Of a stretch of DNA of 54,730 nt, positions 1-6,593 are shown piece after piece; the stretch's first letter is position 1, and each line of letters starts with the position of its first letter. Below the pieces are notes generated by a model. That model did no database searches, was not told the DNA's origin, and saw only the letters and a list, made by a program, of their open reading frames with translations. Position numbers and translations under genes: made by a program. The stretch is from an uncultured bacterium (GTDB lineage Bacteria; Desulfobacterota; Syntrophorhabdia; Syntrophorhabdales; JANXAF01): NCBI GenBank assembly GCA_938084905.1, contig CALKEQ010000014.1, positions 1 to 54,730 on the forward strand. Reading direction: 5' to 3'.

Positions 1-699
1 ATAGATTCTAAATGGAGTTACATCTTCATTAAATGCCCAAGATTTTTCAATTGCTTTTTGTGCTAATAGGGTAAAGTCTGTATCACGGCTTTCTTGCCAT
101 CTTTTCTCAAACCAATTATTCAAATATTTATAATTATCATCCCCTAAAATTCTAGCATTAAGTTCTGTATTTAAACTGAGGCCACTTAGAGAAAAATTAC
201 TTGATCCTAAAATAGCTTCTCCAATTCCATACCCTCGGTCTTTATATTCAAAAAGATAAAGTTTAGCATGAAGAGGTTCTTTAGTATAGATTCTAATTTC
301 AATCTTCTTTTCTCTAAGTTTTTCTAAAAACCATTTCAAAAATTCAATTGTTTCTTTATTAGCTTTTAAATAACTCAAATCTTCTATTAATCCTCTAAAT
401 TCCTCATCTAAAATTTTTTGCTTTTTTTCAGGATTTAAAAATTTTGCCCTTTCTAAAATATCAGCAACTTTTTCTTCCCACTTTTTTTCCAAAAGCAACA
501 CTTCAGCAGTTTGCCTATTTGTTCTTGGAGAAGTTAAAATTTCTAATTTTTCTAATTGATCAATTTCATCTTTTAACTTTTCAAACCCACTCAAAAATAA
601 CCACCCTACTGCAAATTTTGCTCTTTTCGAAACACGCAATTTTTCCTTCAAAACCTCAATTAACTTTACATTTATATTATCAATAATATCCTGCGGCAT
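1..699 (-). CDS. PLD-domain protein, N-terminal part (probable PLD-helicase), cut by window edge
   Basis: An open frame runs from an ATG at 699 to base 1 without a stop: 233 residues, with the C-terminus outside the window. A phospholipase-D-type half-site is visible: H144-x-K146 in a EPLHAKLYLF context, followed by GSSN at 165-168 and a SLNTELN stretch at 175-181. This arrangement is typical of the N-terminal PLD nuclease domain of large SNF2/DEAD-type helicases found in restriction and defence loci, so I infer a helicase follows, but the helicase motifs are not visible here. It lies 55 bases downstream of the OLD-family gene on the same strand and shares its AT-rich composition, so it is probably the third gene of that operon. 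Shine-Dalgarno signal is weak. A stand-alone PLD nuclease is the alternative. Confidence 0.75.
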   Translation of the reverse strand, partial: MPQDIIDNINVKLIEVLKEKLRVSKRAKFAVGWLFLSGFEKLKDEIDQLEKLEILTSPRTNRQTAEVLLLEKKWEEKVADILERAKFLNPEKKQKILDEEFRGLIEDLSYLKANKETIEFLKWFLEKLREKKIEIRIYTKEPLHAKLYLFEYKDRGYGIGEAILGSSNFSLSGLSLNTELNARILGDDNYKYLNNWFEKRWQESRDTDFTLLAQKAIEKSWAFNEDVTPFRIY

Positions 700-754
700 T
701 ATTTAAATTTTACCTAAAATCAAAAAGAGCTTTAAATTTTTTTAATTATTTTTG

Positions 755-2590
755 CTAATTATTTTTGTTAATATCATTTTTAGGCGTTAATAATTGAGGT
801 GTTTTTAACTCTTGTTTAATAAATTCATTTAATTTATTCCTTAACTCTTCTATATTCTCCTTATTTTTTTCAATAAGTTTTTTTAACTTATCATCGTCTC
901 TACAATTCTCATTGAAATAAACCAATGCTAAAGCATAAATATCTCGAGGACTTGGTTTATCATTATCAGTAGGTAGATTGAATTTTTCACGGATTAATTT
1001 TAAAAGTTCCTCCCAATTTTCTATTTTGTTCTTTAATACAGTTTCTAAGTTTTTACCAAAAACTAAAAGATGACCTTTATTAAAAATTTCGCCTTCTTGA
1101 ACATTTGTAATTTCTTCTAATGAAATTTCTATTTTTGTATCATCAGGATTAACTGCATTTTCTTGAGTAAGCATTTGAACTATTTTAGTATTATCTCTAG
1201 AATTTGAATTACTATCTATTACAACTAAACAAGGAATGCCAAATGCAGTTAAAAAGGAATAAATGGCGGGGATATTAGTTTTACCACCAGCAGACACAAT
1301 ACCTATTTGCTCCTTTTCAGCATCGCTAAAAAATTTAAAGAGCATAACCTCTGACGGTCCTTCTACAATAACAGCTTTAGAAGTAAATAACGCCTCTTTT
1401 AAACCTTGAGAAATTGTTTCTATAAGATTGTAGTAAATATGTTGATCACTAATTTCGTTTGTCGATGGATAAAGTGCTAGTGTATGTTTTTTCATGGTTT
1501 CTTTTTTTATGTTTCTAACCTCTATAGCATCAAAGTTTGTTTTACGTAAAAAAATCACAATATTATCAAAATCACCACATTCAATAAAATCTTCAGAATG
1601 AGTTGTGTAAATAATTTGACTTTTAGCAGAGGTGTTGTTTTTTACAAATTCTTTTAAAACATAAAACAAAGTCTTTCTTGCTTGTGGATGTAAATAGGCT
1701 TCGGGCTCTTCTATAAGGAAAATTGCTTTTTCATTCCTTTCGTGTCTTTTAAGATAAGTGTGATATAGAGCAATAATTGCAAGACGTTGTACACCTTCAC
1801 CCAATGTTTCAAGTGGTACATATTTACCATTTTGCATTACTGTGAGCTTAAATTGTCTGTATAATCGCCATGGGTCATAGTCAAGAAATTTTAATTCTAT
1901 TCCAGTTAAATTTTTAGGTTTCATTGCATTCCAAAATTCTCTTATACTATCTTCAATTTCCTTAAATTCATCAGTCCTAAGTAGCTCTACTGCGTCTTTT
2001 ATTTTTTCTTCAAAATTTTTCTTACGACTCGCATCTAATCTTAAATTATCATCTACCCTTTGCAACAGCCTACCCAAAACACTCCATCTATTTGTTGGTT
2101 GTTCTGTAGTTAATTTGGCAAGAGGTACTGTAATGACTATAGGCAGTTGATTTCTAATTTCCGCACTTATAGACTTAAAACTATCAAGTGTATCAAAATT
2201 TAATCTATCAAAGTCTACATCGTCTTGTAGTAATTTATACTTCACACTAATAGAGGTGTCGCCGTAGCCAGTAGATAGATATTTTGCTCCTACTGCTACC
2301 CCCTTTGCATCAATAAAATTGTTTTCACTTAGTTGAACACGTATAGGATCAAAAAATTGACATGCGAGAATAATTTCATTTTGTAGGTTATAGTTATGAA
2401 AATCTTCTTCAGTAAACCGTCCGAATGGCCACTTATCACCTAATAGAATCTCAAGTGCTTTTAAAACTGAACTTTTCCCAACATTATTTGGTCCTATTAA
2501 TGCATTTAACCCAGAATCAGAAAATTCAATAACTGTGGAATCACTTCCAAAACATCGGTAATTTTTTATATACAGTTTTTTAACAATCAT
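755..2590 (-). CDS. OLD-family ATP-dependent endonuclease (ABC-type ATPase plus TOPRIM)
   Basis: A 611-residue protein of the OLD (overcoming lysogenization defect) family, an ATPase that controls a metal-dependent TOPRIM nuclease in phage defence. The ATPase has Walker A GPNNVGKS (33-40), an ABC-like signature LGEGVQR (263-269), Walker B FLIEEPEAYLHP (from 291) and an H-loop THS (330-332). The TOPRIM domain follows with VEGPSE (acidic residue E410) and VVIDSNSN (D459); the usual second aspartate of the DxD motif is Asn here. Its ATG overlaps the stop of the upstream methylase gene (TAATG) and an AAGGAG lies in front, so translation is coupled. OLD proteins usually pair with a UvrD-like helicase (Gabija) or stand alone; here the partners are a methylase and a PLD protein. 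Family is clear, biological role is inferred. Confidence 0.88.
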   Translation of the reverse strand: MIVKKLYIKNYRCFGSDSTVIEFSDSGLNALIGPNNVGKSSVLKALEILLGDKWPFGRFTEEDFHNYNLQNEIILACQFFDPIRVQLSENNFIDAKGVAVGAKYLSTGYGDTSISVKYKLLQDDVDFDRLNFDTLDSFKSISAEIRNQLPIVITVPLAKLTTEQPTNRWSVLGRLLQRVDDNLRLDASRKKNFEEKIKDAVELLRTDEFKEIEDSIREFWNAMKPKNLTGIELKFLDYDPWRLYRQFKLTVMQNGKYVPLETLGEGVQRLAIIALYHTYLKRHERNEKAIFLIEEPEAYLHPQARKTLFYVLKEFVKNNTSAKSQIIYTTHSEDFIECGDFDNIVIFLRKTNFDAIEVRNIKKETMKKHTLALYPSTNEISDQHIYYNLIETISQGLKEALFTSKAVIVEGPSEVMLFKFFSDAEKEQIGIVSAGGKTNIPAIYSFLTAFGIPCLVVIDSNSNSRDNTKIVQMLTQENAVNPDDTKIEISLEEITNVQEGEIFNKGHLLVFGKNLETVLKNKIENWEELLKLIREKFNLPTDNDKPSPRDIYALALVYFNENCRDDDKLKKLIEKNKENIEELRNKLNEFIKQELKTPQLLTPKNDINKNN

Positions 2591-5500
2591 TACACACTCC
2601 TTGCCTTTTCTAATCTGTTTTTTACTAATTCGGCGACTGCCCAGTAGACTTCTTTTCGTTCTTTCTCTGTTAATCCTAATGCATCAAAAACAATATCATC
2701 TAAGGCTTTTCGGTCTGGCAATGGATTTGGCTCTTGATCCCTTATGGGCTTCTTTGGGTCAAAGCCTAGTTCGGTGAAGATGGAATGAATTTCTCTTTCT
2801 AAAAAATTTTCTAAAAATGAGGTTTTTTTAATTTTAACACTAATTGGATTTAAAATTTCCAAAATTTTTAAATCAAATGGAACTAAATAAAGAGCTCCTT
2901 CTCCTAAAGTAGACCTTCCAAAAAGTTCTATGCACAGAATAGTTAAAGTTGAATTTAATATGTAACATAAGTCGAGATTATTTTTATAGTTTATTCCAAT
3001 AAACTTATGTTCAAATAGTAAGTTGTCCAAATTAAGGTGAAATATAAAAATATTATCTTTCGTGTCTCCTGTTAAAATATTTGCTCTTTTATTCAAAAAT
3101 CGATTTTCTTTCTTTATCAACCATTTGGCGTCTTCAGATTTTATTTTTATTTTTCTTACATCTTTAGGTGATTTAAAAACTTTTTCATACTCATTTTTGT
3201 CAAAAATTTGTCCTTCATATCTTTTGTAGTATTTTTTGTTATTTCCTGTAATAATTCCAGCTTTCACCTCCGCAATATCTCCCAATCTTACCAATTTCCC
3301 TTTTCCCTTTCCCAAAATCTTCCAGTAAATTTCTGGTGCTCGAAGATATTTTCCGCCCCATTTGTTGCCAATATATTCTCCTTCTCGCTGACTTCCAATA
3401 AGACGTTTTCCTGTACTTTCTTTTCTTCCATATTCATATAAATCTCTTTGATTAACAAGATGTAGTCTATAAATTTCAGTTTCTCGTCTTTTTCCTTCTG
3501 GATATTCTTTTAAATTTTCGTTTTTTTCTAAATCAATAAAAATTTCAGAGTACATTATTTCTTCAAAGGGTTTTTTGAAATTTACAAATCTTACATCGTT
3601 TGTTTTAATTTCCTCATCAAAATCTTCATCTTTTGGAGCTTTCATTAAGGCAATGATTGTATTAATGTCAGCATGTTTAAAACTTCTTTTTGCTAAATTA
3701 TCATAAATTGCAATAATTGGCACTCTCTTTAATAAAATCTCTTGTATTTTGGTTCCGTAGCCTACATCAAGCCAGGAATTTGAGGAAATATAACAAAGAA
3801 TGCCGTCAGGGTTAAGAAGTTTTAAGCCTTTTAAATAGAAATAAACATACAAGTCTGCTTTTTTATCAAAATTACTTGGAGTAAAGGGGGCTTTACATGG
3901 TTTTCCCTCAAAATTGTAAGACCAATCTCGAAACATTTGCTCGATTAATTTCTCTTTATATTCTTTTTTTGAATAAAAACCAATTAAATCTTCAATTCTT
4001 TCTTGCCTCACATAAGGTGGATTAGCAATAACAATATCAAAGCCATTCTTAATTTGAAAAACTTCGGCAAAAGCCAAATCCCATAACATAGGTGCCTCTT
4101 TTTGTTTGCTCAATTCTTCTTTTAATTTAGTGATCTCTTTCAATTCCAGCTCTTGTCTCTCTTTTTCTTTTGATCTTATTCCAAATAAGGTACCCCGTAG
4201 TAAATCATTTTTTAGTTGAAAATTTATTTTTTGGACTTCTTTTTGAATTTTTATTTCGTATTCTTCCAAAGCATTAATTAACAATTTTTTTTCAAGATAA
4301 AGCGTCTCCCTGTACTCCTTTTCACCGCTAGTTTCGTAAACATGCTTTTTCTTCTGAACCAAAAATTTCAGGTCATCCTCTCTACTCTTCATGAAACTTT
4401 TAATTTTTCTTAGCGGAAGAATGTTATTCCCCAATCTTTGAACTAACCCATCACCGCATCTAATTTTAAAATTTAAATTTGGTAAAAGAGGTTCTATTTG
4501 ATTTTTCAAAATTTCATCTTCGGCATCAACAAATAAATCAAGCCATAACCTAAGTTTTGCTACTTCTATCGCCCATTCTTTAATATCGTTGCCATAAAGG
4601 TTTTTATTGATTATCTTTTTCTTTTCCTCGTATTTACCTAAATGCGGATAATTTAACTCCTTCCACAACGGCTCTTTTAATTGATAAAGAATTTGAAGAG
4701 CAACAACCAAATAATGCCCCGATCCACAGGCTGGATCTAAAATAAATATTTCGTCCAATTCCTTTAAAATTTTTTGAGCTTCTTGAAGAGTGAAAGGGTC
4801 TTGAATTTGCTCTCCAAATTCTGGAAAAACAAACTTGTACAATCTTTCTTTATCCATTCCGGTTTTTTTAAAAAGAAATTCGACTAAACTTCTTTTTATC
4901 ATTAACTCAATTTCTACTTTTGGAGTGTAAAAAATGCCGGCCCTCGCTTGTTCTTCTCGCTCTTCAACATTAACTAAGTGCTCGTATATATTACCCAGCA
5001 TCTCGGGATTTATCGCAATCTCAATGTCAAAAGGCGTTGATTCTTCGATAGTAAAATTATAACTCTCAAAGAATTCAAAAATATCATCGAAAAGTTCGTC
5101 TGGAATTATCCAGCCGATTTTGTCTAATTCATTTTCTTGAAATAAACCGCCGTTAAGATAAGGAGCGTTTTTTAAAATTTCATTAAACTCCTCTAAATAT
5201 GCTTTCTCTTTGTAAAGCCAAGATGGTTGAGAAAGAGATTCAAAAAATAAAACGTTCAACCATTTTTGATGAAATTCGTCTTTCCCCCCTGAATTTGCTT
5301 TATAAGCTTCCCAAAAATTTGCTAAGAAGTTTTGGTCTTGGCCAAAAGAGCCCCTTTTTTGCACAAAATAAAGGAACATAAGCCTGTTTAACGTTTGATG
5401 AATAAAGTTTCTGACCCTTCCTTCTTTTTCTTTCCCAGATGCCTGTACATTTTGTTTTATTAGGGTTTTTTTAATTTCGTTAAAAATTTCAATGTAACTT

Positions 5501-6033
5501 TCATAGAATTTCTCTGTCACCGCTTCCACACTAAAAGCTTCTTCAATCTTGTTTTTTATGTCAGAGAAATCTAATTTTCCTTCCGCTAAATTCAATTTCT
5601 CCAACTGCTCACAAGCGGTTCTAAGTTTATTTCTATTTTCCGGACAAATAAAAAATCTTTTTAACCTAATATTGCCCCCGATTTTTTCTGCTTTTAAAAA
5701 ATCTAAATAGTTAAAATTGTTAGCCGCAAATACGAAAACACAGTTTTCAATGTCAAGTTCTTTTCCGCGAGTTAAAAAATGAACAGTTTTTCTTTCAAAT
5801 GATTTTAGTTTTCTTTCAGGTGAGCTTAAATCGTCGATCTCAAAAAAAAGAACCTTAAATTGATCCCTTTCACTTAAAATTAAAGAGCAAGTAATCTCAT
5901 TTTTTAATTCAAGGGGAAAACTAAAATGTGGTTTTGGAATTTTTGGTAACTCCCAATTCCATTTTTCAATAAATAATTCTCTTAATTTATTTACCGAATT
6001 AATTTCCGCCAAATAGAAGCTAGGTTTTTCCAC
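2590..6033 (-). CDS. Eco57I/PglX-like N6-adenine DNA methylase (restriction-modification type)
   Basis: A 1147-residue protein with the layout of large amino-methyltransferases of type IIG restriction enzymes, BREX PglX and DISARM DrmMI. An N-terminal domain of about 150 residues without an obvious PD-(D/E)xK site precedes a helical region (about 205-360, with YFVQKRG and PYLNGGLF). SAM-binding motif I is DPACGSGHYL (433-442) and catalytic motif IV is NPPY (671-674). Between them is a long charged coiled-coil insertion (about 545-650). A target-recognition-type segment follows (GDIAEVKAGIITGNNKKYYK). The family modifies adenine to mark self DNA; whether this one also cuts cannot be told. It is first in the operon. 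The start is a GTG with no clear Shine-Dalgarno and an in-frame stop just upstream, so a later start is possible. Confidence 0.88.
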   Translation of the reverse strand: MEKPSFYLAEINSVNKLRELFIEKWNWELPKIPKPHFSFPLELKNEITCSLILSERDQFKVLFFEIDDLSSPERKLKSFERKTVHFLTRGKELDIENCVFVFAANNFNYLDFLKAEKIGGNIRLKRFFICPENRNKLRTACEQLEKLNLAEGKLDFSDIKNKIEEAFSVEAVTEKFYESYIEIFNEIKKTLIKQNVQASGKEKEGRVRNFIHQTLNRLMFLYFVQKRGSFGQDQNFLANFWEAYKANSGGKDEFHQKWLNVLFFESLSQPSWLYKEKAYLEEFNEILKNAPYLNGGLFQENELDKIGWIIPDELFDDIFEFFESYNFTIEESTPFDIEIAINPEMLGNIYEHLVNVEEREEQARAGIFYTPKVEIELMIKRSLVEFLFKKTGMDKERLYKFVFPEFGEQIQDPFTLQEAQKILKELDEIFILDPACGSGHYLVVALQILYQLKEPLWKELNYPHLGKYEEKKKIINKNLYGNDIKEWAIEVAKLRLWLDLFVDAEDEILKNQIEPLLPNLNFKIRCGDGLVQRLGNNILPLRKIKSFMKSREDDLKFLVQKKKHVYETSGEKEYRETLYLEKKLLINALEEYEIKIQKEVQKINFQLKNDLLRGTLFGIRSKEKERQELELKEITKLKEELSKQKEAPMLWDLAFAEVFQIKNGFDIVIANPPYVRQERIEDLIGFYSKKEYKEKLIEQMFRDWSYNFEGKPCKAPFTPSNFDKKADLYVYFYLKGLKLLNPDGILCYISSNSWLDVGYGTKIQEILLKRVPIIAIYDNLAKRSFKHADINTIIALMKAPKDEDFDEEIKTNDVRFVNFKKPFEEIMYSEIFIDLEKNENLKEYPEGKRRETEIYRLHLVNQRDLYEYGRKESTGKRLIGSQREGEYIGNKWGGKYLRAPEIYWKILGKGKGKLVRLGDIAEVKAGIITGNNKKYYKRYEGQIFDKNEYEKVFKSPKDVRKIKIKSEDAKWLIKKENRFLNKRANILTGDTKDNIFIFHLNLDNLLFEHKFIGINYKNNLDLCYILNSTLTILCIELFGRSTLGEGALYLVPFDLKILEILNPISVKIKKTSFLENFLEREIHSIFTELGFDPKKPIRDQEPNPLPDRKALDDIVFDALGLTEKERKEVYWAVAELVKNRLEKARSV

Positions 6034-6472
6034 GTTCAGTTAAGATAGAAATAACCTGGTCATTATCTTTATTTTAGCATCGTCCAAATGTTCCAATAAA
6101 ATTCAAATTTCATTTTAGCACAAATTTATTACAGGGGTCTGACCCCCGTGAAATATTCCAAGTTTTCGCCAAGTTGGCGAGTAAATTTTTCGTGAGGGTC
6201 GACTTTGTGAGCTGGACTCTCCATTTTTTGAAAACAAGTATCAATTTTTTAGCGTAAAGGCAATTTTTTCTTCGTGCTAACTAAACCAGCTATTTTGTAT
6301 CCTTTTATTCTGTGTTTTGAATTGCTAGCAAATCCTCCGTGAAATTTTCTCTCTTTGAAGCTTTGAAGAGTGCAGACAAAGTACATAACAAATACTCTTC
6401 AGGCCGTGAACCAGAGCAAAACCACAGTTCACAGCCATCTACCGTATTTGCGAAGCAAACCCTTCTAAATTA
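6034..6472. other. Gene-free junction between defence operon and tRNA-Asn
   Basis: About 440 bases without a credible gene. It contains two short perfect inverted repeats: GGGGTCTGACCCC (6134-6146) and TCGCCAAGTTGGCGA (6166-6180). The first resembles short palindromes that I recall, without being able to check, being scattered in Deltaproteobacteria genomes. The AT-rich promoter of the methylase gene must lie near 6040-6110, but I find no convincing -35/-10 pair. No integrase or attachment-site duplicate is visible. Confidence 0.5.
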
Positions 6473-6546
6473 CTCCCCGGGCAGGACTCGAACCTGCAAC
6501 CTACGGGTTAACAGCCCGCCGCTACTGCCGGTTGAGCTACCGGGGA
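6473..6546 (-). tRNA. tRNA-Asn (GTT)
   Basis: Read on the minus strand, the 74-base gene has acceptor strands TCCCCGG and CCGGGGA plus discriminator G, a D arm with AGCTCAACCGGCAG, an anticodon loop CTGTTAA (anticodon GTT) and the T arm GGTTCGAGTCC. CCA is not encoded. It follows tyrS by about 47 bases and its 3' end faces the AT-rich defence region. Confidence 0.95.
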
Positions 6547-6558
6547 ACTAGTCACATT

Positions 6559-6588
6559 AGTTAACTACAGCTTGAGCCTTTATGTCAA
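6559..6588 (-). promoter_or_regulatory. Candidate promoter of tRNA-Asn
   Basis: On the minus strand TTGACA (6588-6583) is followed after 18 bases by TTAACT (6564-6559). Transcription would start a few bases before the tRNA 5' end. The -10 box is weak, and the region overlaps the first bases after tyrS, so read-through from tyrS is also possible. Confidence 0.45.
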
Positions 6589-6593
6589 GTTAA

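Follow-up and report, generated by a model that had tools for sequence, protein, structure and literature searches.

A methylase and nuclease–helicase pair with an exchangeable middle gene: a candidate restriction–modification-like operon carrying an OLD protein

The window analysed here is the whole of a 54,730-nucleotide (nt) stretch from an uncultured Syntrophorhabdales bacterium (contig CALKEQ010000014.1, our C14), and it begins with a candidate defence operon. Three open reading frames (ORFs) were confirmed, all on the minus strand and transcribed in the order methylase, OLD-family protein and N-terminus of a PLD-domain protein (Table 1). The stop codon of the methylase shares one base with the start codon of OLD (TAATG), and the OLD and PLD genes are separated by a gap of 55 nt with no overlap. 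Of the co-directional, partly overlapping set first described from the sequence, the common strand and the methylase/OLD overlap stand. The first base of the window is also the first base of the contig, in a host genome of 1.54 Mb assembled into 16 contigs and 98% complete. Hence, it is the assembly and not a stop codon that truncates the PLD gene, and the operon cannot be extended leftward in this assembly.

Table 1. Features of the operon and its boundary in the window
Feature	Position	Strand	Remarks
PglX/Eco57I-family adenine-specific DNA methyltransferase (predicted)	2590..6033	-	1147 aa, GTG start; C-terminal target-recognition region
OLD-family ABC ATPase + TOPRIM protein	755..2590	-	611 aa; gene occupying the exchangeable slot
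HKD/PLD nuclease–SNF2 helicase fusion (predicted), N-terminal 233 aa	1..699	-	open at contig end
altered TOPRIM metal-A motif D459-S460-N461	1208..1216	-	relatives have D-x-D (alignment)
PLD-domain nuclease motif H-A-K ... G-S-S-N ... E	163..270	-	alignment of homologues
tRNA-Asn (GTT)	6472..6547	-	ARAGORN; directly upstream of the operon; likely island boundary

The first gene product is predicted from its motifs and modelled fold to be a PglX/BrxX-like N6-methylase. The motifs DPACGSG and NPPY are present in the translation, and Pfam assigns an Eco57I domain (E = 3e-29) together with an N6_Mtase domain. A phmmer query of the PDB with the methylase gave no match, but a structure search did. 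The AlphaFold model, built from 24 sequences, has a predicted local distance difference test (pLDDT) score of 71 and a predicted template modelling (pTM) score of 0.69, and its best Foldseek matches are the PglX/BrxX structures 8q56 (E = 2e-15), 8c45 and 9ewz (E values to 3e-14), aligned over about 1100 columns; CamA, MmeI, BpuSI and DrdV follow as weaker matches.

The PLD fragment at the contig end contains PLDc_2 (E = 1e-11) and RE_NgoFVII domains and matches the PADLOC model C3a139 ‘HKD+Snf2’ (E = 1.5e-16). It is 71% identical over 231 aa to residues 2–232 of an intact 1060-aa protein from the metagenome-assembled genome (MAG) ‘Parcubacteria bacterium GBS-2’ (L018; L numbers are our locus identifiers), which has PLDc_2, SNF2 and Helicase_C domains. 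By this comparison the third gene would encode an HKD/PLD nuclease fused to an SNF2 helicase, about 1060 aa long when intact, the helicase part being known from the L018 relative. The motif H-A-K…GSSN…E is invariant in an eight-sequence alignment that includes the window, and the pattern H-x-K...N...E is present in 61 of 66 helicase homologues. It resembles the motif of BfiI/NgoFVII-type PLD nucleases, which have a single such motif. Neither the PADLOC HKD+Snf2 model nor an intact homologue, used as queries, located the remainder of the helicase elsewhere in the host genome. In L082 (11662-18937) the neighbours of a more distant SNF2 helicase, in which the HKD motif pattern is absent, are DUF4391, a Res-type nuclease and a type III-type methylase.

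The OLD protein has an AAA_15 domain (E = 2e-40) and an OLD-like TOPRIM domain (E = 4e-13), matches the PADLOC ‘Old’ model (E = 1e-43), and finds its best PDB match in the class 1 OLD protein of Thermus scotoductus, TsOLD (6p74; E = 1e-38 over about 460 residues). All three gene identities in the original prediction are therefore borne out: an Eco57I/PglX-like methylase, an OLD ATPase/TOPRIM protein, and a PLD-domain protein that was thought perhaps to be a helicase and whose intact L018 relative is a PLD–SNF2 helicase fusion. The TOPRIM site of the window protein is altered. The ligands E410, E414 and D459 are present, and the second aspartate of the DxD motif is replaced by N461, whereas four OLD relatives retain DxD (L100, DND; L103, DGD; L101, DAD; L086, DND). 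The metal-A ligands of TsOLD are E377, D431 and D433, and the triple mutant loses cleavage activity 12–15-fold while retaining nicking (PMC7049728). Because the site reads DxN in the window, the output of this OLD protein may be exerted through its ATPase domain or through weakened nicking instead of full DNA cleavage. A single-sequence AlphaFold model of the protein reached a pLDDT of 36 and was not used.

We searched for the helicase in 395 genomes of the phylum, in plasmids and in viral contigs, and read the neighbourhoods. A methylase of this type and the helicase lie on the same strand, at most five genes apart, in 80 of the 98 helicase loci, some of which were retrieved via the methylase; among loci retrieved by the helicase alone the pair is found in 40 of 60, several of the remainder being cut by contig ends. 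The two proteins also diverge together, their pairwise divergences being correlated across 65 pairs (Mantel r = 0.81, 0 of 2000 permutations) in a test that ignores shared species phylogeny. The pair ranges over bacteria, archaeal plasmids and viral contigs; single-protein queries (OLD, helicase) against the viral contigs returned no relatives, but alignment queries did. The closed plasmids Pelobacter pPRO1 and Thermus oshimai pTHEOS02 (methylase frame split in two) carry the pair alone, and it is also present on a Thermococcus plasmid and a haloarchaeal plasmid. The window has the same combination of HKD–SNF2 gene and PglX-like methylase on one strand, with only the HKD part of the helicase visible. 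Since scores of loci repeat the pairing of methylase and helicase, and since the operon has a GC content of 30% where the remainder of the window has 43%, the three-gene arrangement is not a chance one. Its description as a defence-like operon holds.

In L018 the methylase, 65% identical to that of the window, is followed by a Fic gene and then the helicase, the same arrangement with another middle gene. At this locus the methylase gene is interrupted in the recognition region and split into a 938-aa ORF, a 203-aa ORF without a Pfam match and a 281-aa ORF that matches residues 996–1147 of the window methylase (L018:9995-14261), and two ORFs upstream resemble an AbiEi/AbiEii pair, as judged from sequence (L018:7777-9034).

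The position held by OLD in the window is an exchangeable slot between the two core genes. Elsewhere it is filled by Fic (L018; also L134, by BLAST), SLFN_AlbA_2 (Schlafen/AlbA; L023, L049, L125), PIN (L040), HigB/HigA with PIN (L051), MNT–HepT (L042, L091), AbiEii with a partner (L098, L038), DUF1016/YhcG of the PD-(D/E)XK fold (L052, L081), BRO-N (L028, L029, L032), zeta toxin (L077), Mrr_N (L067), DUF4258 with DUF2851 (L071) or VapBC (L114), and in other loci it is empty. The slot genes are mostly of toxin or abortive-infection types and are almost always co-directional with the core. The slot is occupied in 11 of 15 methylase-first loci versus 14 of 65 helicase-first loci (Fisher p = 0.0003; the loci are not phylogenetically independent, and a few of the slot ORFs counted carry no identification). 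The three-gene set of the window therefore looks like one version of a widespread modular design and not a fixed new system. The conserved unit is probably the methylase and HKD–SNF2 helicase pair, so that the ‘three-gene system’ first proposed would have taken the wrong unit.

Several further genes were met in or next to the slot. A 601-aa protein without a Pfam or PADLOC match lies between methylase and AbiEii on the Thermococcus plasmid (L038:7775-9580), and a 1944-aa ORF without a Pfam match lies between helicase and methylase in L080 (1869-7703). Large ABC-ATPase proteins directly follow the methylase at L034:11384-14032, where the protein matches PADLOC Ppl, and at L046:2336-5248; these are possibly further back-up effectors outside the slot.

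Methylase, OLD and helicase in exactly this order were seen in the window and nowhere else, which counts in part against the original prediction, where such uniqueness had been named as a refutation. Next to this core OLD does recur: in L086 and L131/L210 an OLD gene and a UvrD-type gene, a Gabija-like arrangement, lie directly downstream of helicase–methylase pairs (L086:2564-5186; L131:10859-15042). The most telling case is the equivalent position in a type I restriction–modification (R-M) operon on a viral-collection contig, where a close relative of the window OLD stands between the specificity and restriction subunits as HsdS–OLD–HsdR (L213:6637-12556). On a Mesorhizobium plasmid an N6-methylase is directly followed by a relative of the window OLD, with no adjoining helicase. 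Other nearest relatives of this OLD occur with a C5-methylase-like/Vsr-like gene cluster, named from sequence (L103), with a type III Mod-like methylase (L117) or in a DUF6079 BREX-like locus with Fic (L119); further members of the clade are found alone (L115, L118) or beside UvrD (L116). The OLD-clade profile is present in 15 of the 395 phylum genomes, and among the examined ones only the window has OLD beside this core.

The operon has the appearance of an island. Its GC content is 30.3%, and no 2-kb stretch of the remainder of the window falls below 39.9%. The tRNA-Asn gene, within positions 6034–6593, divides the operon from a housekeeping block of 43% GC. The TyrRS–YmdB–RNase Y block is kept together with tRNA-Asn in four relatives (L218, L219, L220 and L222), and in a fifth (L221) with no tRNA detected; none of them has the operon at this place, and the genes downstream of the tRNA site differ from one relative to the next. 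The closest homologues are in the MAG labelled Parcubacteria. Direct repeats near the operon were only AT-rich chance matches and no attachment-site duplication was found, in a search that the contig end limits. The simplest reading is that the operon was acquired horizontally.

We consider it probable, at roughly 65%, that the operon is a two-component, ATP-dependent R-M-like core with an exchangeable back-up effector that follows the logic of PrrC. The data show the gene content, the conserved pairing and joint divergence of methylase and helicase, the conservation of catalytic motifs in the methylase and the PLD domain, the exchange of the slot gene and an island-like acquisition; the enzymatic activities, the self/non-self logic, and the trigger and target of OLD we infer. 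The PglX-like methylase would methylate adenine at a motif that its own C-terminal domain recognises, thereby marking self DNA, a role that the original prediction also gave it and that we keep as likely. As restriction subunit, the HKD–SNF2 protein would be a translocase powered by ATP, and its PLD-family nuclease domain would cut DNA that lacks methylation. OLD would form a second layer, its ABC ATPase responding to anti-restriction proteins, to (phage) DNA ends or to the failure of the restriction core; once triggered, it would kill or arrest the cell or attack phage DNA, in the manner of PrrC within type Ic R-M operons. Several points weigh against this proposal: the window holds a cut-off copy of the helicase, the rest of which the assembly lacks, the TOPRIM metal site of OLD is altered, the Mantel correlation is blind to species phylogeny, the slot is filled only exceptionally in helicase-first loci, and the exact gene order is confined to the window. 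Going further, we tentatively suggest that the pair represents an unnamed, widespread class of stand-alone ATP-dependent R-M system with a dedicated effector slot, in which OLD may sense restriction failure through its ATPase and not through its degenerate TOPRIM; we would not give this extension even odds.

A new, fixed system with three obligate components, with OLD as an integral effector switched on by the methylase–helicase complex, would account for the tight operon with its 1-nt methylase/OLD overlap, for the methylase–OLD neighbours on the Mesorhizobium plasmid and for OLD following the same core in L086 and L131/L210. We regard it as unlikely, since most loci of the same core are without OLD, their slots holding unrelated genes or none, and since the window alone has OLD beside the core among the OLD-clade genomes examined.

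The operon might alternatively be part of a decaying island that is non-functional in this strain, with a truncated helicase and an OLD protein whose TOPRIM is damaged. The missing helicase remainder, the DxN site and the broken methylase of the nearest relative all fit such decay, but in the window the methylase and OLD frames are open over their full length, nothing in the PLD motif is lost, and the helicase breaks exactly at the contig end, as an assembly would produce. Decay is quite improbable.

A self-contained type IIG restriction-methylase, lying beside unrelated defence genes in a defence island, is suggested by the best PADLOC class of the methylase (REase_MTase_IIG, 181 bits) and by the presence of MmeI, BpuSI and DrdV among its fold matches. 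The best fold match, however, is PglX/BrxX, which is a methylase, and at most loci the methylase gene goes together with the helicase gene. At the sequence level, residues 1–160 show no D/E/K nuclease triad conserved across 36 homologues, and for this reason a pure methylase is a likelier identity for the protein than a type IIG enzyme. We hold the type IIG explanation to be very unlikely.

That the operon is a fragment of a DISARM, ARMADA, BREX or Hma/BREX-Related (BR) locus whose other genes lie past the contig end is the least probable explanation. In its favour are the SNF2 and PglX-like pair of DISARM class I and ARMADA, the N-terminal HKD nuclease of Type-2 BR helicases and the missing left side of the locus, but the helicase scores higher with the PADLOC HKD+Snf2 model (186 bits) than with DrmD (100) or HmaA (81), MZB, PglZ and DUF499 genes are absent from the host genome, and closed plasmids carry the pair only.

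If the proposed R-M-like reading is correct, a compact two-gene core, far simpler to test, would stand either at the base of the larger DISARM, ARMADA and BR families or next to them. The slot would then be a natural collection of back-up effectors matched to one restriction core, and a sensor of restriction failure would become directly testable through the slot gene. The PrrC logic, in which an ABC ATPase guards a restriction enzyme, would also extend to OLD proteins.

PADLOC holds an HKD+Snf2 model, so helicases of this kind have already been noticed. We found no paper that names the methylase–HKD-SNF2 pair as a system of its own, which is weak evidence of novelty because most subscription journals were outside the search. 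DISARM class I and ARMADA share a pair made of an SNF2 (BrxHII/RapA-like) helicase and a PglX-like methylase, to which they add a YprA/MZB helicase (PMC12458937). The pair described here is of the same composition, but has no YprA or DrmA–DrmB (MZB) gene near it and carries its PLD nuclease fused to the helicase, not as a separate protein. MZB (PF09369) was not found in the host genome, and MZB genes, present in 17 of 51 helicase-bearing genomes, are never near the helicase. With no MZB/DUF1998 (DrmA–DrmB, YprA) gene in the genome or near the pair, DISARM and ARMADA were rejected, and the earlier idea of a DISARM-like locus continuing to the left is not supported. BREX was rejected since PglZ (PF08665) is absent from the host genome, in which a BrxC-type ATPase was not searched for genome-wide. 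The Hma/Type-2 BR systems (DUF499–N6-MTase–HKD/SNF2 helicase–DUF3780) resemble the window in having an HKD nuclease N-terminal to an SNF2 helicase and a paired N6-methylase. Hma/BR requires DUF499, and TOPRIM/OLD genes are reported as auxiliary or backup effectors in BREX and BR loci (PMC12839542). DUF499 (PF04465) was found neither in the host genome nor among the slot and flanking genes tested, hence the rejection of Hma/BR; the methylase here is also of the PglX/Eco57I type and not of the COG1743/N6_N4_Mtase type.

As regards OLD itself, the window protein shares with class 1 OLD proteins (TsOLD, 6P74) an ABC ATPase joined to a TOPRIM and the lack of an adjoining UvrD gene; it differs in N461 at the second metal-A aspartate and in being embedded in an R-M-like operon. 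It shares the OLD ATPase–TOPRIM fold with Gabija (GajA–GajB), but its gene has no adjoining UvrD/GajB partner. Gabija and class 2 OLD were rejected because the gene is flanked by the methylase and the HKD–SNF2 gene and not by UvrD. PrrC is an ABC-ATPase anticodon nuclease that is silenced by the linked type I R-M enzyme and released by a phage anti-restriction factor, and type I loci also contain insertions of related ‘restriction linked orf’ genes (PMC2610378). Type I R-M loci with inserted effectors (PrrC, RloC and the OLD gene of L213) have, like the operon described here, a modification and recognition part, a slot effector and an ATP-dependent SWI2/SNF2-type restriction subunit, with the ABC-ATPase effector lying between the two parts. 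In the window operon, the recognition domain is instead fused to the methylase in place of a separate HsdS, and a PLD nuclease takes the place of the nuclease domain that belongs to HsdR.

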